Positions 53,239-64,000 of a stretch of DNA of 64,000 bases are shown here, one piece after another. Where the stretch lies: assembly GCF_014646055.1 (NCBI RefSeq), contig NZ_BMMS01000002.1, positions 79,729-143,728 of the forward strand, read 5' to 3'. The stretch is from Wenjunlia tyrosinilytica (GTDB taxonomy: Bacteria > Actinomycetota > Actinomycetes > Streptomycetales > Streptomycetaceae). The notes beneath the pieces are model-generated. The model made no database searches. It saw nothing but the letters and a program-made list of their open reading frames with translations, and was not told the DNA's origin. A program made the position numbers and the translations under genes. The number at the start of each line of letters is the position of its first letter. The stretch's first letter is position 1.

Positions 53239-53730
53239 TCAATGCGGCGGCGCGGGCCGCCGGGGCCTCCCGGGGGCTCCCCCTCCGGTCGTCCTCCAGT
53301 CGTCCTTGGGCTTTCCGCCCACCGTGATCCGGCCGTCCTCGACCCTCACCGGTATCGCCGGGAGGGCCTTGTCCGCCGGGCCCTGGGCCACTGTGCCGTC
53401 GGTGATGTGGAAGCGGCTGCCGTGGCAGGGGCAGTTCGCCGTGCCGTCCGCCACGGAGTCCACCACGCACCCGGCGTGCGTGCACACGGCGCTGAACGCC
53501 GTGAAGCGGCCCTTCTCCGGCTGTGAGACCAGCAGCTTCCGCTCGCGGAAGAGCTCGGCCCCGCCCACCGGGATCTGCGTCGCCGCCCCGAGGTCCACCG
53601 GCTCGGTGGGCACCGCGGGTGCCGCCGCTCCCGTGCCCGGCCCGCACGAGGCCGACGTGAGAGCGGCGGCAGCCACCAGAACACTGCGGCGACAGGGAAT
53701 CGGCCCCCGGCCGTCGTCGAACCCGTCCAC
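53239..53730 (-). CDS. Exported Rieske [2Fe-2S] protein, probable lipoprotein
   Basis: 163 aa. The N-terminus IPCRRSVLVAAAALTSASC combines a twin-arginine pair with a lipobox-like SASC, so it is probably Tat-exported folded and lipid-anchored. The Rieske ligands are in CTHAGCVVDS and CPCHGSRFHI. The electron partner is unknown. The GTG start shares one base with the uvrA stop codon (TAGTG), so it is read through from uvrA. The C-terminal 15 residues are Pro/Gly/Arg-rich. Confidence 0.87.
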   Translation of the reverse strand: MDGFDDGRGPIPCRRSVLVAAAALTSASCGPGTGAAAPAVPTEPVDLGAATQIPVGGAELFRERKLLVSQPEKGRFTAFSAVCTHAGCVVDSVADGTANCPCHGSRFHITDGTVAQGPADKALPAIPVRVEDGRITVGGKPKDDWRTTGGGAPGRPRRPAPPH

Positions 53731-56700
53731 TACTTCTTGGCCGCGGCCTTCTTCGCGGCGGTCTTCGAGGCGGCCGTCTTCGCGGCAGCCGTCTTCTTGG
53801 CAGCCGTCTTCGCGGCGGCCGTCTTCTTCACGGCGACCTTCTTCGCGGCCACCTTCTTCGCCGGGACCGTCACCGAGTTGGCCTTGGTGGTCCGGGCGGC
53901 CGTGGCCGCCGTGACGGAGCCCGCGGCCCTGTCCGGGTCGGACCCGGCCCTGCGCATCTGCGGCACGGTGGCGTCGCTGACCCGGTCCCCCAGGACGTCA
54001 CGGAGGAACTTGCCCGTGTGGCTGGCCGGGATCGCGGCCACCTCCTCGGGCGTGCCCTCGGCGACCAGCAGGCCACCACCGCTGCCGCCCTCGGGCCCCA
54101 TGTCCACGACCCAGTCGGCGGTTTTGATCACATCGAGGTTGTGCTCGATGACGATCACGGTGTTGCCCTTGTCGACCAGTCCGGACAGGACATTGATCAG
54201 CTTGCTGATGTCCTCGAAGTGCAGACCCGTCGTCGGCTCGTCCAGGACGTACACCGTCCGGCCGGTCGAGCGCTTCTGGAGCTCCGACGCCAGCTTGACC
54301 CGCTGGGCCTCGCCACCCGACAGGGTCGGCGCCGACTGCCCGAGGCGGACGTAGCCGAGACCGACGTCGTTGAGCGTGCGCAGGTGCCTCGAGATCGCCG
54401 GGACCGCGTCGAAGAAGTCCATGGCCTCCTCGATGGGCATGTCCAGCACCTCGGCGATGGACTTGCCCTTGAAGTGCACCTCCAGCGTCTCCCGGTTGTA
54501 CCGGGCGCCGTGGCACACCTCGCACGGGACGTACACGTCCGGCAGGAAGTTCATCTCGATCTTGATGGTGCCGTCACCGGAGCAGTTCTCGCACCGGCCG
54601 CCCTTGACGTTGAAGGAGAAACGCCCCGGCAGGTAGCCGCGGACCTTCGCCTCCGTCGTCTCGGCGAACAGCCGCCGGACATGGTCGAAGACACCCGTGT
54701 ACGTCGCCGGGTTGGACCGCGGGGTGCGGCCGATGGGCGACTGGTCCACATGCACGACCTTGTCGACGAGGTCGTCGCCGTCGACGCGGGTGTGGCGCCC
54801 CGGCACGGTGCGGGCGCCGTTCAGCTCACGCGCAAGGTGCGTGTACAGGATGTCGTTGACCAGCGTCGACTTGCCCGAGCCGGACACCCCCGTCACGGCC
54901 GTGAAGACACCGAGGGGGAAGGAGACATTGATGTCCTGGAGGTTGTGCTCGCGGGCTCCGCGTACGATCAGCTGCCGCTGCGGATCGCGCGGGCGCCTGA
55001 TCCGCGGCGTCGGAATGGCCTTGCGCCCCGACAGGTAGGCGCCGGTCATCGACTCCTTGTTCCCCAGCAGCTCCTTCAACGGGCCGCTGTGCACCACCTT
55101 GCCGCCGTGCTCGCCCGCACCCGGGCCGATGTCCACCACCCAGTCCGACGTGCGGATGGTGTCCTCGTCGTGCTCGACCACGATCAGCGTGTTGCCCATG
55201 TCCCGCAGCCGGACCAGGGTCTCGATCAGCCGGTGGTTGTCCCGCTGGTGCAGGCCGATGGACGGCTCGTCCAGGACGTACAGCACACCGACCAGGCCGG
55301 AGCCGATCTGCGTGGCGAGCCGGATGCGCTGCGCCTCGCCACCGGAGAGGGTGCCCGCGGCGCGGTTGAGCGAGAGGTAGTCGAGGCCGACGTCCACGAG
55401 GAAGCGCAGCCGCTCGTTGACCTCCTTGAGCACCCGCTCGGCGATGGTCTTCTCGCGGGCGGTGAGCTTCATCCCGCGCAGGAAGTCGGCGCAGTCGCTG
55501 ATGGACATCGCGGAGATGTCGGCGATGGACTTCCCCTGCACGGTGACCGCGAGGACGATCGGTTTCAGCCGCGTCCCGGAGCACGTCGGGCAGTGGACCT
55601 CGCGCATGTAGCCCTCGAAGCGCTCACGGCTGCTGTCGCTCTCCGCCTCGGAGTGCCGACGCTTCACGAACGGGATCGCGCCCTCGAACGAGGTCGTGTA
55701 GGACCGCTCGCGCCCGTACCGGTTGCGGTACCTCACCTGGATCTGGGTCCGGTGGCCGTGCAGCAGCGCCTTCTTCGCCCGCGCCGGAAGCCCGGCCCAG
55801 GGGATGTCGGTGCGGAAGCCCAACTCGCCGGCGAGCGCGCCGATCAGGCGGTTGAAGTAGTCCTTGGAGTGGCCCATCGACCACGGCCCGATCGCGCCCT
55901 CGTCGAGGGTCTTCTCCTCGTCGGTGACGATGAGCTCCGGGTCGACCTCCATCCGGGTGCCGATGCCGGTGCAGTCGGGGCAGGCGCCGAACGGGGAGTT
56001 GAACGAGAACGACCTCGGCTCGAGCTCCTCGAACGACAGGTCGTCGTACGGGCAGTACAGGTGCTCGGAGAACATCCGCTCACGCTGCGGGTCGTCCTCG
56101 GGCAGGTCGACGAAGTCCAGGATCACCATGCCGCCGGACAGGCCCAGCGCGGTCTCCACCGAGTCGGTGAGGCGGCGCTTGGCCGATTCCTTCACCGTGA
56201 GCCGGTCCACCACCACCTCGACGGTGTGCTTCTCCTGCTTCTTCAGCTTCGGCGGGTCGGTGAGCTGGATCGTCTGCCCGTCCACCCTGGCCCGGCTGTA
56301 CCCCTTGGCCTGGAGCTCGGAGAAGAGGTCGACGAACTCGCCCTTGCGGGAGCGGACCAGAGGGCTGAGGACCTGGAAGCGGCTGCCCTCCTCCAGCTCC
56401 AGCACCCGGTCCACGATCGCCTGCGGGCTCTGCCGGGCGATGGGGCGCCCGCACTCGGGACAGTGCGGCTTGCCGATGCGCGCGAAGAGCAGCCGCAGGT
56501 AGTCGTAGACCTCGGTGATGGTGCCCACCGTCGACCGCGGGTTGCGGGAGGTGGACTTCTGGTCGATGGAGACCGCGGGCGACAACCCCTCGATGAAGTC
56601 GACGTCGGGCTTGTCCATCTGGCCGAGGAACTGCCGCGCGTACGACGACAGCGACTCAACGTAGCGGCGCTGGCCCTCCGCGAAGATCGTGTCGAAGGCC

Positions 56701-56822
56701 AGGGAGGACTTCCCCGACCCGGACAGGCCCGTGAAGACGATGAGCGAGTCGCGGGGGAGGTCGAGCGAGACGTTCTTCAGGTTGTGCTCGCGAGCGCCAC
56801 GGACGGTGAGGCGGTCGGCCAC
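53730..56822 (-). CDS. uvrA: UvrABC subunit A with a lysine/alanine-rich C-terminal tail
   Basis: 1030 aa. UvrA recognises DNA damage as a dimer and loads UvrB. Two ABC modules with zinc motifs are visible: Walker [17 protein letters not shown] and [14 protein letters not shown], signatures [12 protein letters not shown] and [15 protein letters not shown], zinc clusters [15 protein letters not shown] and [19 protein letters not shown] with CEVCHGARY. After the conserved end the protein has about 50 extra residues (from about 980) of AAKK/TAAAK repeats like a histone H1 tail. The GTG start follows AGAAAGG. A LexA-like site lies in the promoter region. Confidence 0.96.
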
Positions 56823-58759: not shown

Positions 58760-59746
58760 TCAGCGGGCCGCGTTCTCCCGCTCCTCAGCCTTCTCCTCGA
58801 CCTCGGCCTGCTTCTTCGACGCCCTCAGGCTGGTCACCGTGGTGACGGCGAGGACCAGGACGATGAAGCCGAGCGAGAAGGGGATGCCGATGTGCGGCAC
58901 GTGCACACCGGTGCCGTGCAGGGCCTCCAGCACGAGCTTCACACCGATGAAGCCGAGGATGACCGACAGGCCGTAGGAGAGGTGGACCAGCCTCTTCAGC
59001 AGCCCGCCGATGAGGAAGTACAGCTGGCGCAGACCCATCAGCGCGAAGGCGTTGGCCGTGAAGACGATGTACGGGTCCTTGGTGAGGCCGAAGATCGCGG
59101 GGATCGAGTCCAGCGCGAAGAGCACATCGGTCGTTCCGATCGCCAGCATCACGATCAGCATCGGGGTGATCAGGCGCTTGCCGTGCTCCCGGACGACCAG
59201 CTTGGTGCCGTGGTAGCGGTCCGTGGCGGGGACCCGCTTCTCCACGGCCTTGAGCAGGCGGTTCTCCTCGAACTCCTCGTCGCCCTTGTCGGCCCGCGCC
59301 TCCTGGACGAGCTTCCAGGCGGTGTAGACGAGGAACGCGCCGAAGATGAAGAACACCCACGAGAACGTCGTCACGATCGCGGCGCCCGCGGCGATGAACA
59401 CCGCTCGCAGCACCAGCGCGATCAGGACACCGACCAGCAGAACCCTCTGCTGGTAGACCGTGGGCACGGCGAACTTCGCCATGATGAGGACGAAGACGAA
59501 GAGGTTGTCCACGCTCAGGGACTTCTCGGTGATGAAGCCCGCGAAGAACTCCCCGCCGGGCCCGCCTCCGGCGAACACCAGGAGCCCGGCGCCGAAGAGG
59601 CAGGCGAGGGCGATCCAGACGACCGTCCAGATGCCCGCCTCCTTCATGGAGACGTCGTGCGGCTTGCGGCCGATGACGAAGTCAGCGGCGATGAGGGCCA
59701 TCAGGCCAAGGATTGTCGCGACCCACAGGGTCAGGGAAACGTCCAC
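58760..59746 (-). CDS. TerC-family integral membrane protein, probable Mn2+ exporter
   Basis: 328 aa, about nine helices. Acidic motifs in membrane segments, ALIAADFVIGR and SLSVDNLFVFVLIM near the start and GTTDVLFALDSIPAIFGLT later, are the TerC/Alx/YkoY signature for metal transport. The last 25 residues are charged (KKQAEVEEKAEERENAAR). The GTG start at 59746 has GGAGGACTG just upstream, and this ribosome site is part of a riboswitch stem. Members under this riboswitch export Mn2+, which fits. Confidence 0.92.
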   Translation of the reverse strand: MDVSLTLWVATILGLMALIAADFVIGRKPHDVSMKEAGIWTVVWIALACLFGAGLLVFAGGGPGGEFFAGFITEKSLSVDNLFVFVLIMAKFAVPTVYQQRVLLVGVLIALVLRAVFIAAGAAIVTTFSWVFFIFGAFLVYTAWKLVQEARADKGDEEFEENRLLKAVEKRVPATDRYHGTKLVVREHGKRLITPMLIVMLAIGTTDVLFALDSIPAIFGLTKDPYIVFTANAFALMGLRQLYFLIGGLLKRLVHLSYGLSVILGFIGVKLVLEALHGTGVHVPHIGIPFSLGFIVLVLAVTTVTSLRASKKQAEVEEKAEERENAAR

Positions 59747-59910
59747 CAGTCCTCCGGCAGATGCAGGCGTTTACAACGTCAGCTACGTAGCTGCCGGAGG
59801 TCTCTTCCACCCGGTGCTGCATCTGTGGGCCGGTGGCCCGGGCCCAGCGTGATCCAAGGATCCGCCAGGGCCGTGATGACGGGCCCGCCGCTAAAGGAAT
59901 ACTCCCCTCC
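59747..59910 (-). promoter_or_regulatory. yybP-ykoY-type (Mn2+) riboswitch controlling terC translation
   Basis: Read on the minus strand the leader begins GGAGGGGAGTA (59910-59900), as in the yybP-ykoY consensus. It closes with GAAGAGACCTCC (ending 59796), so P1 pairs GGAGG with CCTCC. The 3' strand CCTCCGGCAG (59800-59791) is also a perfect 10-bp complement of CTGCCGGAGG (59760-59751), which contains the terC ribosome site. Ligand-stabilised P1 would therefore free the ribosome site: translational ON control by Mn2+. Confidence 0.87.
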
Positions 59911-59972
59911 GCGTAAAGAACAGTACAGGAACACCAAGAGAAGGTAAAGGCGATCGATGTGCTGACGCACCG

Positions 59973-60013
59973 GCGCCCTGCGGCGCGGTCCTCAAGGAAC
60001 GGCCGCAGGGCGC
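59973..60013 (-). terminator. Hairpin after the large TerD-domain gene
   Basis: Perfect 12-bp arms GCGCCCTGCGGC (59973-59984) and GCCGCAGGGCGC (60002-60013), 17-nt loop, beginning 34 bp beyond the stop of the gene at 60047 and just upstream of the terC leader. Confidence 0.8.
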
Positions 60014-60046
60014 TTGACTGCGAGGCGTTGTCCGGCAGGCGGCCGC

Positions 60047-62041
60047 CTAGCGGTTGAACTGCTCGCGGGCGCTCGCCACCCGCTCCCCCACCTGCTGGAG
60101 CACCTGGCTCCCCGTCGGCGGTAGCAGCGGGCAGAACGTCCAGGCGTGCCCGACCCAGGGGTCGGCGAGGTGGTCGTCGGGGGTCGGCGTCAGGCGCAGA
60201 AGCGCCCGCCACAGCGGGTCGAGCACCGGGCCGTAGGCACGGGCGTCGTCCCGGTCGGCCACCATCATCAGCTGCACACCCACCGACGGCCCCTCGTCGG
60301 CGAGATAGCGCAGCTGGGTGACCGCGCGGTCGTCGAACCCGAAGGGGAAGTCATTGACGATCAGGAGCTGCTCGCTCAGGTCCAGATGCGGCGGCAGTGC
60401 GTCCGAGGCCCCGCCGCGCATCGCCATCTGCACCAGATCGACGCGCTGGATGAGCTTGGAGATCATCGCGGAAACTCCCTCCGCACCGGCCGCCGGAGGC
60501 TCCTTCAAGGCCCCCGACCGCACGAGCGGCGCCAGTGCGGCCGCCCCCGAACCGGCGGGGTCGATCACATTGACGTTGAACTCCCCGGCCGGGTACGCCG
60601 CGAGCATCCGCACGGCGAGGGAGACGGCCGTGTCCATCGCCAGGCGCTTGGCCTGCTCGGAGTCCACGGTCATGGGGGTGTTCGGCGACCGGCCCGCGTC
60701 GATCCACAGCCCGCGCTCGAGCGGAAGGCGCACCAGCATCGGGATCCGCAGCTGCGGCTGCTCCGGCAGGTGCAGATCGCCGAGGCGGACCGCCATGGGC
60801 GTTTCCATCGAGGGCTTGAACCCGTTCCAGACCGCGCTCTCCCACTGCGCGAACGCGGGCGGCAGCGCGGGCTCGACCACATTGGACTCGGCGGTGAGCT
60901 GGGCGATGTCGCGGTCCAGCGCGGCCCGGGCCTGGTCGACGAGCGCGCCGTGCTTGGCGCGGGCGGCGCCGCGTGCGGCGTCGGCGGCCGGGCCGACCCG
61001 GGTGGCCGGGTCGGCCAGCACCTTGTCGAGCTCCTGCTCCATGCGCGACTCGGCGAAATCCACCGCGCTGCGGTAGGCGGCCGTGGTGCGGGCCAGGTCC
61101 TCGAACATGCCCCAGACCTGGTTGTAGAGCCGCTCCTCCATGGTCCAGCCCGACGCGTTGCCCGCGACCGGCTCCGAACCGTCCTGACCAGCCACCGGCG
61201 CAACGGGCGCGGGGGCGCGATTGGGGTGCTGGTAGTTCAACGGCCCCGTACCGCCCGCCGCCGCAGCGGGCGCGGGCGTGGCCGGGCCGGGCTGCGGGGA
61301 GGCGGGGGCGGGCGTCGCCGGGGTGGACGTCGCCGGGGCGGGCGTCGCCGGGGTGGAGGCCGGGTCGGGGTGGGGCGCCGCGGAGGACCCGGCGGCATTC
61401 CCGCCCACCGTGGCCGCCCTGCGGACCCGTTCGCCTTCCTCGGTGCGCGGGGGAGGCGCGGCGACGGAGCGGGCGAGCCCTCGCGCCACGGCCTCGTTGA
61501 TCGAGGAGGCCAGCTCCATGGCCTCCGGCAGACCCTGGTCCCTCAGCATGTCGGACAGACCGCCGGCATACCCCTGCCCGACCGCGCGGACCTTCCAGGC
61601 GCCCTGGCGGCGGTACAGCTCGACGGCGAGCACCGCGGACTCGGAGTTGAGGTCAGTGATGGTGTAGGTGGCGATCTCGGAGCCGTCGAGGCCGGTGATG
61701 GCGACGAAGGGGGAGGCGATGGCGCCGAACCGCGAGGGAGCGCCGTCCACCTGGGGCAGGGCCAGCAGGATATTGACCCAGTGCACATTCTCGGGCATCG
61801 CGCCGAGGTCCACCGCGAGGTGGTTCTCGGCCGCGGCCTGGCGGGAGACCTCGAGCCCCGGCAGCTGGGGGGAGCCCGGGTGTGCGACCCACTCGACTCC
61901 CCGCACCCTGCCGTGCTCGTCGCCGAGGGTGGCACCGGCGATGACCGGCTTCCCCGTCGACACTCTCACTTCCAGGCGGCCCCCGCCGGAGATGTCCGCC
62001 GGGAGGGGGTGGTTCTGTCCCCGGGTCAACTCGGCAGTCAT
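60047..62041 (-). CDS. TerD-domain protein fused to a large P-loop-like C-terminal region
   Basis: 664 aa. The N-terminal TerD domain (about residues 1-185) contains NHLAVDLGAMPENVHWVNIL and LYRRQGAWKVRAVGQGYAGG, very close to the first domain of the protein at 10351-11661. A Pro/Ala/Thr linker (about 230-290) follows, then a helical segment (RTTAAYRSAVDFAESRMEQE) and a C-terminal domain with LRIPMLVRLPLERGLWIDAG, EFNVNVIDPAGSG and HLDLSEQLLIVNDFPFGFDD, a layout like an FtsK/EccC-type ATPase fold but without a clear Walker A. It probably acts with the TerD protein upstream in a stress-response complex. Confidence 0.85.
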   Translation of the reverse strand: MTAELTRGQNHPLPADISGGGRLEVRVSTGKPVIAGATLGDEHGRVRGVEWVAHPGSPQLPGLEVSRQAAAENHLAVDLGAMPENVHWVNILLALPQVDGAPSRFGAIASPFVAITGLDGSEIATYTITDLNSESAVLAVELYRRQGAWKVRAVGQGYAGGLSDMLRDQGLPEAMELASSINEAVARGLARSVAAPPPRTEEGERVRRAATVGGNAAGSSAAPHPDPASTPATPAPATSTPATPAPASPQPGPATPAPAAAAGGTGPLNYQHPNRAPAPVAPVAGQDGSEPVAGNASGWTMEERLYNQVWGMFEDLARTTAAYRSAVDFAESRMEQELDKVLADPATRVGPAADAARGAARAKHGALVDQARAALDRDIAQLTAESNVVEPALPPAFAQWESAVWNGFKPSMETPMAVRLGDLHLPEQPQLRIPMLVRLPLERGLWIDAGRSPNTPMTVDSEQAKRLAMDTAVSLAVRMLAAYPAGEFNVNVIDPAGSGAAALAPLVRSGALKEPPAAGAEGVSAMISKLIQRVDLVQMAMRGGASDALPPHLDLSEQLLIVNDFPFGFDDRAVTQLRYLADEGPSVGVQLMMVADRDDARAYGPVLDPLWRALLRLTPTPDDHLADPWVGHAWTFCPLLPPTGSQVLQQVGERVASAREQFNR

Positions 62042-62074
62042 CGCTGCTCCCCCTCTTTGCGCTTGTCCGTTGCG

Positions 62075-62135
62075 CTTGTCGTCTTGTCGCACTCGTCTTG
62101 TGGCACTCGTCGTAGGGCACTCGTCGTGCGGTATG
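62075..62135. repeat. Short CTCGTCGT/CTTGTCGT repeats before the large TerD gene
   Basis: Imperfect units of about 18 bp around GGCACTCGTCGT (GCACTCGTCTTGTG, GCACTCGTCGTAGG, GCACTCGTCGTGCG) plus TTGCGCTTGTC copies in the 275-bp spacer 62042-62316. No gene is seen there. Confidence 0.75.
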
Positions 62136-62244
62136 CGGCGTCCGCGACAGCTGTCGGTCGGCCGTGCCCTCCCCGGTGCGCGGGTCCTCACAGCGGGGCG
62201 CCGCCGCTTGGGCGGACGGCCCGCGCACCGGGGTCGGTACAGCA

Positions 62245-62327
62245 GGTGCTACGGGTGCTGCGGGTACTCAGGTGCTAAAGATTGCTACAGGTGCTACAGG
62301 CACGGTGCTGCGGGTGCTACAGGTGCG
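62245..62327. repeat. GGTGCTAC tandem array over the terD-like stop codon
   Basis: About eight units of GGTGCTACG/GGTGCTGCG/GGTGCTACA, some decayed, end over the TAG stop (62317-62319) of the TerD gene. The CTA of the unit itself supplies the stop codon on the minus strand. Confidence 0.85.
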
Positions 62328-62898
62328 CGGCGATCGCCGGCATGAGGTCCTGGAACGTGCGGCCGCTGGCCGGAGCGCCGATGGCGGACATCTGCCACTG
62401 GCCGTTGGCACCGCGAAACACCTTGGCCATGACCTGGGCGGTGTACTGGCCGCCACCGGTGAGGGTGTAGCGGGCCAGCTCCTGGCCGTTGGTCTCGTCG
62501 ATCAGGCGGCAGAACGCGTCCTGCACCTCCTGGAACGTCTGCCCGGTGAAAGAGTTCACTGTGAAGACGATCTGGTTGATGTGCACGGGCACGCGCTGGA
62601 GGTCGACGATGATCGACTCGTCGTCCCCGCCCGCACCGGCGCCACCCACCAGGTTGTCACCGGTGTGGCGCACGGAGCCGTCGTCGCTCACCAGGTGACG
62701 GAAGAAGACCACGTCCACCGGCTGGTTGTCCGCGAAGAGCACCGCCGAGGCGTCGAGGTCGATCTCACGGGTCCGGCTGCCGAACAGCCCGCGGCGAGGC
62801 GCGGCCTTCCAGCCCAGCCCCATCCGCACCACGCTGAGCGCGCCCCCGTCGGACTTCTGAAGGCTGATCTGCTGGCCCTTGGCCAGGTTCACCGTCAC
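62317..62898 (-). CDS. TerD-family stress protein
   Basis: 193 aa single-domain TerD. VTVNLAKGQQISLQKSDGGA starts the fold; VVRMGLGWKAA, REIDLDASAVLFAD and GDNLVGGAGAGGDDESIIVDL carry the acidic calcium-binding residues, ending NGQWQMSAIGAPASGRTFQD. The GTG at 62898 has GAGGAGGG seven bases upstream; earlier starts lack a ribosome site. It is upstream of the TerD/P-loop gene on the same strand (275 bp apart), so a shared function is likely. Proteins of this type bind Ca2+ and have been tied to tellurite resistance, metal stress and development. Confidence 0.92.
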   Translation of the reverse strand: MTVNLAKGQQISLQKSDGGALSVVRMGLGWKAAPRRGLFGSRTREIDLDASAVLFADNQPVDVVFFRHLVSDDGSVRHTGDNLVGGAGAGGDDESIIVDLQRVPVHINQIVFTVNSFTGQTFQEVQDAFCRLIDETNGQELARYTLTGGGQYTAQVMAKVFRGANGQWQMSAIGAPASGRTFQDLMPAIAAHL

Positions 62899-63051
62899 GC
62901 GCTGTCCCTCCTCATTGAACTGCCTTTGCCTTGCTGGTCGCACCCTACGCAGTGCCACCGACACCGGGCCCCGCAGGGCTGGCTTTGTGGCGGTGTTGAG
63001 ACATGAGGGCGGGACCGGACGAGGACAGGCGCGTACCGACCGCCGTTTCGG

Positions 63052-64000
63052 CTAGGCGATCCCCGCCTCTCGCATCTGCCGCAGCTCCTTCTTCAACTCC
63101 CCCACCTCGTCGCGCAGACGGGCGGCGACCTCGAACTGGAGCTCCGAGGCGGCGGTGTGCATCTGGTCCGTCAGGTCCTGGATCAGCTCCGCCAACTCCG
63201 CCGCGGGCAGGCTCTTCGCGCCCTTGCGCTTCTCCCCCGCCTTGGCGGACAGCCCCGGCACCGGAGCCTTCCCCCGCGACTGCTGGCGCCCGGACCCGAG
63301 CAGTTCGCCCGTGTCCGCGTCCTCGCGGGCGATGGAGTCGAGGATGTCGCCGATCTTCTTGCGCAGCGGCTGCGGATCGATCCCGCGCTCGGTGTTGTAC
63401 GCGACCTGCTTCTCGCGGCGGCGGTTGGTCTCCTCGATCGCCTTCTCCATCGAGGGGGTGACCCGGTCCGCGTACATGTGGACCTGGCCGGAGACATTTC
63501 GCGCCGCGCGTCCGATGGTCTGGATCAGCGAGGTGCCCGACCGCAGGAACCCCTCCTTGTCGGCGTCGAGGATCGACACCAGCGAGACCTCGGGAAGGTC
63601 GAGGCCCTCCCTGAGCAGGTTGATGCCGACGAGCACGTCGTACTCACCCGCGCGCAGCTCCCGCAGGAGCTCGACACGGCGCAGCGTGTCGATGTCGCTG
63701 TGCAGATACCGGACCCGGACCCCGAGCTCCAGCATGTAGTCGGTCAGGTCCTCGGCCATCTTCTTGGTGAGCGTGGTGACCAGGACCCGCTCGTCCTTCT
63801 CGGCCCGCAGCCGCACCTCGTGGACCAGATCGTCGATCTGGCCCTCGGTGGGCTTGACGATGACCTCGGGGTCGATGAGACCGGTGGGACGGATGATCTG
63901 CTCGACCACCCCGTCGCCCCGCGAGAGCTCGTACGGGCCCGGCGTCGCGGACAGGTAGACGGTCTGCCCGATCCGCTCCAGGAACTCCTCCCATTTCAGC
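63052..64000 (-). CDS. uvrB: UvrABC subunit B, C-terminal half (5' end outside window)
   Basis: 316 codons of the UvrB helicase-like damage-verification subunit. Visible: [14 protein letters not shown] (motif III region), [20 protein letters not shown], helicase motifs V and VI ([40 protein letters not shown]) and the C-terminal UVR motif that binds UvrC ([20 protein letters not shown]). A short low-complexity segment [15 protein letters not shown] precedes the UVR motif. It is separated from the downstream TerD gene by 153 bp with no gene. Confidence 0.96.

Follow-up and report, generated by a model that had tools for sequence, protein, structure and literature searches.

Does the leader of the terC gene in Wenjunlia tyrosinilytica carry a manganese riboswitch of the yybP-ykoY class, and how would such an element control the gene? 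We examined a stretch of 64,000 nucleotides (nt) of contig NZ_BMMS01000002.1, hereafter the window, whose minus strand encodes terC at 58760-59746 (328 amino acids, GTG start at 59746-59744; TerC domain PF03741, E-value 7.1e-52). Features are given below in window positions, and those of the terC leader lie on the minus strand. A first-pass annotation, made from the letters alone, had proposed a Mn2+ riboswitch in front of terC, and in a sequence check every piece of it was found at its given position. Here we assign a yybP-ykoY-type aptamer to 59911-59795 in the terC leader, and we consider it probable (about 0.88, from sequence comparison) that the leader is a Mn2+ riboswitch of a compact form lacking helix P2, acting as a translational ON switch. 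Homology and pairing point to Mn2+ as the ligand and to the ON direction of the switch, and the leader most likely exposes the ribosome site when manganese is abundant.

Structure of the putative aptamer

To describe the aptamer, we use an alignment of relatives from Streptomycetaceae. Among 110 terC loci gathered (30 + 80; L001 is the window, L002 and L032 are one and the same contig), 80 contain GGGGAGTA within 230 nt upstream of the start, giving 77 distinct aptamers. This set (A1) was fitted with helices P1 (6 base pairs, bp), P1.2 (UCC/GGA), P3.1, P3.2 and P4, which are arranged around a junction as in other members of the class.

The leader reads CGGAGGGGAGTA at 59911-59900 (with GGAGGGGAGTA at 59910-59900) and GAGACCTCCG at 59804-59795 (with GAGACCTCC at 59804-59796). 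From its 5' end, the predicted element begins with the 5' strand of the switch helix P1, CGGAGG (59906-59911), which pairs with 59800-59795 and is invariant in the 77 aptamers, followed by the 5' strand of the internal loop L1, GGAGTAT (59899-59905; part of the conserved GGGGAGTA motif at 59907-59900), and by the 5' strand of P1.2, TCC (59896-59898), which pairs with GGA at 59808-59806 and is also invariant in the 77. Next come the 5' strand of P3.1 (59880-59890, made up of 59890-59886 and 59883-59880), loop L3 with TCATCAC (59873-59879), the P3.2 hairpin (59841-59872, with double changes at its pairs), the 3' strand of P3.1 (59831-59840, made up of 59840-59837 and 59835-59831; both P3.1 strands are placed by alignments and covariation) and the variable P4 hairpin (59809-59830, all four modelled pairs showing double changes). 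The 3' strand of L1, AGAGA (59801-59805; GAGA invariant, first A in at least 90% of A1), leads into the 3' strand of P1, CCTCCG, which extends to CCTCCGGCAG (59791-59800) and would serve as the shared switching strand (anti-Shine-Dalgarno).

The core motifs of the class are present in both loops. L1 has GGGGAGUA on its 5' side (59907-59900) and GAGACC on its 3' side (59804-59799), and the GAGACC columns are invariant in the 77 sequences; the 80 loci and 77 aptamers had been selected by GGGGAGTA/GGGGAGUA, whose constancy among them is thus by construction. Outside Streptomycetaceae, GGGGAGTA recurs in most matches of our model R1 (see below), with few variants, e.g. GGGCAGTA. L3 contains CGUCA in 77/77 Streptomycetaceae aptamers (C-G-T-C-A invariant) and likewise in the Escherichia coli alx leader. 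By this context the A at 59877 matches, and would be the counterpart of, the invariable Mn2+-contacting adenosine of L3 (A41 in Lactococcus lactis, A48 in Xanthomonas oryzae) described in PMC6754395.

The P2 helix, which makes the crystallised members four-way junctions, is absent from the window element. We do not take P2 to define the class, since by its sequence alx appears to lack it too, and a three-way junction has been described for the riboswitch of mgtA in Streptococcus pneumoniae. All sets were measured by the same rule, from GUA of L1 to L3 with a floor of 12 nt. The interval is 17-26 nt long in the 80 Streptomycetaceae terC copies (folding no better than -5.9 kcal/mol), 12-21 nt in 60 other R1 matches (no better than -7.7 kcal/mol) and 18 nt in alx, with no hairpin. 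In 19 P2-bearing loci (18 RF00080-type loci and E. coli mntP), it is 23-37 nt long, and 16 of the 19 fold at -9.1 kcal/mol or better, the exceptions being mntP at -4.8 and a further two at -2.2. The two length ranges share 23-26 nt, so it is the hairpin, and not length alone, that separates P2-less from P2-bearing elements. One Streptomycetaceae terC aptamer (L211:1054-1200, minus strand) has a P2-like hairpin.

Detection by purpose-built covariance models

Two covariance models were built. R1 was derived from A1, which includes the window's own copy, and R2 from 58 elements outside the window's family; R2 contains no letters of the window or of Streptomycetaceae, yet its elements were found through R1. 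The R2 set leaves out L186 (a member of the window's family), L201 (by oversight) and alx. The reference is the Rfam model RF00080 (yybP-ykoY, Manganese; Rfam release 15, gathering score 45 bits).

Applied to the window, R1 gives 84.2 bits (E-value 1.1e-15), and its next match has an E-value of 0.93. R1 was also run on 21 further loci, namely two from E. coli and 19 matched by RF00080 (all but one below its cut-off); L128 and the alx leader came out on top, the latter ranking second with 39.1 bits and an E-value of 4.1e-6. Searching the window and the two E. coli loci (70.5 kb) with R2 at E-values up to 10 returned just two matches: 59795-59911 of the window (73.9 bits) and the alx leader (L130 1376-1500, 48.1 bits, E-value 3.6e-8), where alx begins at L130 1581. 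The window element is far beyond chance resemblance, because R2, without sequences of the window or its family, matches it at an E-value of 9.5e-14. R2 also finds L111, the sole RF00080 match above cut-off, at 1.9e-5, and at E-values below 0.02 it recovers 14 of 18 RF00080-type loci, L111 counted (13/17 of the others). Homology to known members is therefore found through alx (by R1 and R2) and through L111 (by R2).

Covariation

In A1, 98.7% of cells are paired, and 45 double-change cells are observed as compared to 12.8 in shuffles. A wider alignment of 70 sequences comprises the 58 of alignment A4 plus L186, L201, alx, the window and eight training rows (nine rows are the window or R1 training). 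Here 95.6% of cells are paired and 23 of 27 pairs have double changes, including 5/6 pairs of P1 and 3/3 pairs of P1.2. Double-change cells number 324, as compared to 77.5 in shuffles, and sliding the partners gives no more than 51. Similar values are obtained from the 58 outside-family sequences by themselves: 95.0% of cells paired (76.5% in shuffles), double changes in 22 of 27 pairs (5/6 in P1), 254 double-change cells (65.3 shuffled, at most 45 slid) and a covariation score of 0.529 (0.194 shuffled, at most 0.115 slid). A C-G/U-A double change at one pair of P1.2 is seen in 25/70 sequences, and in 15/58 outside the family. A GGA/UCC hairpin inside L1, suggested by RNAalifold, is invariant in the Streptomycetaceae set just as P1.2 is, so the two are indistinguishable there; it was replaced by P1.2 (UCC/GGA), which has double changes in the wider sets. 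The yybP-ykoY class named in the first-pass annotation is thus borne out by covariance-model matches to the alx leader and by two-sided changes in every helix.

Expression platform and promoter

The P1 strand is shared with the expression platform, as is typical of the class. The ribosome site of terC, CTGCCGGAGG (59751-59760), contains the Shine-Dalgarno sequence GGAGG (59755-59751), 4 nt from the GTG start. All ten bases of the switching strand CCTCCGGCAG (59800-59791) can form Watson-Crick pairs with CTGCCGGAGG (59760-59751), which confirms the earlier claim of a 10-bp alternative pairing over the ribosome site. Each of the 80 aptamer-bearing leaders from Streptomycetaceae allows the P1 3' strand to pair with the ribosome site over 8-11 bp (G-U allowed; 10 bp in 57 of them), and this helix ends 4-10 nt before the start codon. 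A helix of at least 8 bp arises in 4% of base-shuffled downstream segments. The pairing follows in part from P1 and the Shine-Dalgarno sequence both being GGAGG, and it is the further pairs that carry weight.

We also looked at this pairing in 52 other actinobacterial loci. These are the 61 non-training rows minus nine (L130, L156, L172, L183, L186, L188, L193, L195 and L197) whose gene start was not near, certain or complete; the start codon is mis-set at two of the 52 (L175 and L184), which were kept in the counts. In 43 of the loci a helix of at least 6 bp to the ribosome site is found. Each locus's own combination of anti-Shine-Dalgarno and Shine-Dalgarno strands scores 18.8 as compared to 15.0 (standard deviation 0.41) for permuted combinations, a value that 0 of 5000 permutations reach, and strand pairs that change together include CCTTCGGC/GCCGAAGG and CCTTCAACTG/CAGTTGAAGG. 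Constrained folds of the window leader are close to balance, at -70.7 kcal/mol with P1 formed and -72.0 kcal/mol with the ribosome site sequestered; a sequestered state favoured by 1.3 kcal/mol is expected of a switch that needs its ligand. In sum, terC as the target and the geometry of the switch, both put forward in the first-pass annotation, hold up comparatively, including the conserved pairing to the ribosome site.

Upstream of the aptamer, we noticed a -35-like element TTTACC (59943-59948) and, 17 nt after it, a -10-like element TACTGT (59920-59925), both putative promoter elements. A generic scan of 59650-60060 found no consensus sigma-70 promoter. The block ends 8 nt before P1 and its position is conserved (P1 follows the first T of TTTAC by 37-39 nt in 69 leaders out of the 77, among the 80, that contain CTTTAC within 60 nt), which suggests that terC transcription would begin near the first base of the aptamer. 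The pattern TTTACN, 0-8 nt, C[TA]TGG (window 59920-59948) is found within 330 nt upstream at 72/80 loci with the aptamer and 13/30 without, and the conserved CTTGG in the promoter spacer is a possible operator. There was no support for reading the promoter block as an operator used across the genome, as the stricter pattern CTTTACCNNNNCTTGG occurs just twice in the organism's own genome, once here.

These elements suggest the following mechanism. A transcript beginning at about 59911 would present the aptamer first. Binding of Mn2+ between L1 and L3 would hold P1 (CGGAGG/CCTCCG) shut and occupy 59800-59795, leaving GGAGG at 59755-59751 open to the ribosome; TerC would then be produced, and manganese would be lowered or routed. 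Without Mn2+, CCTCCGGCAG would pair with CTGCCGGAGG and hide the ribosome site.

Distribution and partner genes

Searching 121 Streptomycetaceae genomes with R1 gives matches in 77 genomes at 81 places. Of these places, 76 are 26-101 nt upstream of terC (distances computed on 76 terC rows), 4 are upstream of GDT1 genes, and 1 (L209) has no clear partner. The copies before GDT1 (UPF0016) genes (L206, L207, L208 and L212) are second copies of the element in four genomes. The R1 match at L209:1792-1891 (minus strand) has an altered core (GGGAGTGGAGTA) and no recognisable partner, and may be a chance hit or a decayed copy. In a search for a second Mn2+ riboswitch in the genome of W. tyrosinilytica itself, R1 gives one match in all, and a search for GDT1 (PF01169) found none at E-values up to 0.001 (the same search was positive in 3/14 control genomes).

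Two terC loci without the aptamer, L005 and L108, look like riboswitch fossils: some 120 nt before terC they retain the strands of P1 and the sequestering hairpin, but no longer the aptamer core. R1 gives no match in either at E-values up to 1, and no such leader was found on reading the remaining 28 aptamer-less terC loci by eye.

Within a phylum sample of 396 actinobacterial genomes (R1 at E-values up to 0.01; R1 and RF00080 both run with strict filters), R1 matches 66 genomes (11 of them Streptomycetaceae) and RF00080 matches 18, one above cut-off. The R1 places number 75, of which 30 + 40 were collected as loci, one is L128 and 4 are outside the collection. Partner genes (one per locus, chosen by codon GC bias) were called at 58 of 59 loci (none at L179), with L156 and L197 outside the set as contig ends were too near. 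In these 58 loci (57 actinobacterial loci and alx) the next gene encodes TerC (38), a P-type ATPase (12), a Na/Ca exchanger (2), GDT1 (1), an M50 protease with CBS domain (2), a DksA/TraR-type zinc finger protein (1) or a protein with no Pfam match (2). The unusual partners are found at L145, L150, L157, L190 and L170: two proteins of about 290 amino acids without Pfam match, two M50-CBS proteins and one DksA/TraR-type protein. In lying before genes of Mn2+ homeostasis (TerC, MntP, P-type ATPase, UPF0016/GDT1), the elements agree with the class.

The actinobacterial P2-less elements might even form a branch of their own, for the most part unannotated, with a metal preference particular to it (Mn2+ with Ca2+), a wider regulon that takes in unknown proteins and a CBS-domain site-2 protease as well as P-type ATPases and Na/Ca exchangers, and repeated gain and loss of P2; we regard this extension as doubtful.

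At the window locus, two TerD-domain proteins adjoin terC (60047-62964, minus strand). The terC/TerD block is located between reading frames that we take, from their translations, to be uvrA-like (53730-56822) and uvrB-like (63052-63909).

Counter-evidence and rival readings

A number of results weigh against a Mn2+ riboswitch in the terC leader and are collected here. The scan with the Rfam yybP-ykoY model that had been proposed as a check came out negative: at its gathering score RF00080 matches neither the window nor any of 20 relatives (for 15 of the 20, not even at E-values up to 10), and it finds nothing in 59600-60060 at E-values up to 10 or in the organism's own genome at E-values up to 0.001. 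E. coli mntP, a P2-bearing member, is missed by both R1 and R2 at E-values up to 10. Within A1, P1 and P1.2 are invariant and so show no covariation within Streptomycetaceae, and only four pairs have double changes, a number that 24 of 500 shuffles reach. The structure of R1 was used in fitting alignments A2 and A4, which favours P1.2, a bias that slide controls and shuffles limit. P3.1 of the window contains one C-A mismatch, and 30 of the 110 terC loci have no aptamer. As for the switch, 9 of the 52 other actinobacterial loci have no helix of at least 6 bp to the ribosome site, only 20 of the 52 score above their own shuffles at the 5% level, and in just 9 does no other partner do better than the locus's own. 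The unconstrained minimum of the 173-nt window leader (-74.8 kcal/mol) is a third structure, from which P1 and the exact 10-bp helix are both absent. When the fold is constrained to form P1, a weak local 8-bp hairpin with G-U pairs still lies over the start codon.

The Rfam result says little about class membership, since the same model fails on E. coli: as a control (L130 and L131), the alx locus has no RF00080 match at E-values up to 1, and mntP scores 41.6 bits, under the cut-off of 45. Once alx had failed in this way, we dropped the Rfam scan as the deciding test. RF00080 seems to need a compact sub-model. Weak matches of Rfam microRNA, small nucleolar RNA and small RNA models at the locus were all under their own cut-offs and were set aside.

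That Rfam finds nothing would suit a chance resemblance, or plain conserved promoter DNA, but the 73.9 bits obtained with the outside-family model, the covariation and the match to alx leave this hardly credible. An alternative that keeps the fold and the switch is that the ligand is not Mn2+ alone, i.e. that the element is a Ca2+/Mn2+ sensor as described for S. pneumoniae mgtA. Such a sensor would fit an actinobacterial branch without P2 whose targets include P-type ATPases (12/58) and Na/Ca exchangers (2/58). The target here, however, is TerC, the nearest outside match is alx, which is annotated as a Mn2+ exporter, the CGUCA context of L3 with its adenosine is invariant in 77/77, and even mgtA transcription in vitro is activated more by Mn2+ than by Ca2+ (PMC9495176), so we consider a mixed sensor unlikely. 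The leader could also act by ending transcription early, perhaps through Rho, and the 10-bp helix would then be of secondary importance; the yybP element before SCO2347 of Streptomyces coelicolor is given as an example of attenuation (PMC4681348). This is improbable here, given that no intrinsic-terminator-like site was found in 59650-60060 by a generic scan and that the alternative helix covers the ribosome site in 80/80 leaders.

Another question is whether the element mainly senses alkaline pH. The alx leader, matched by both R1 and R2, was reportedly first described as alkaline-pH responsive. The yybP element is also called pH responsive, after earlier work, in PMC4681348. The partner genes, however, are mostly metal exporters, and Alx itself is annotated as a Mn2+ exporter, which a title cited in PMC10550928 calls riboswitch-controlled; a primary role in pH sensing is therefore very improbable. 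We retain the Mn2+ riboswitch with translational control of terC as the preferred reading. It means that the public riboswitch model overlooks a compact branch and that terC of Streptomycetaceae gains an assigned RNA-level control by manganese. A corrected family model would turn up further candidate Mn2+-regulated genes and would allow the role of P2 in metal selectivity to be tested.

Comparison with known systems

The class, its ligand and both control modes are already established (PMC9294342), and a partial survey of the open-licence literature yielded no paper describing the leader of Streptomycetaceae terC. The E. coli alx leader is alike in its L1 and L3 core, its TerC-family gene and the lack of P2 between L1 and P3; it differs in a longer P4 region, a higher AT content and another expression platform sequence. 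The crystal structures from L. lactis and X. oryzae share the L1 and L3 core, the invariable adenosine and a switch helix, P1.1 (PMC6754395), but published yybP-ykoY structures are four-way junctions (PMC6754395; PMC11087558), in contrast to the window element without P2. A three-way junction has been reported for S. pneumoniae mgtA (PMC9495176), so the absence of P2 is not new in itself; that riboswitch precedes another gene and binds Ca2+ tighter than Mn2+ (PMC9495176).

Other systems can be likened by description. In Bacillus subtilis, the meeY (ykoY) leader places a TerC-family gene under a Mn-responsive riboswitch (PMC10550928). Among actinobacteria, a yybP element precedes SCO2347 of S. 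coelicolor, whose product is called an integral membrane protein (PMC4681348) and which may be terC or the GDT1-type second copy. The terC gene of Corynebacterium glutamicum (cg2157) has an RF00080 match in front of it (PMC3890552), and its leader, unlike that of the window, is recognised by Rfam, at 49 bits (PMC3890552). With these systems for comparison, the terC leader adds to a known riboswitch class that is under-annotated in Actinobacteria.
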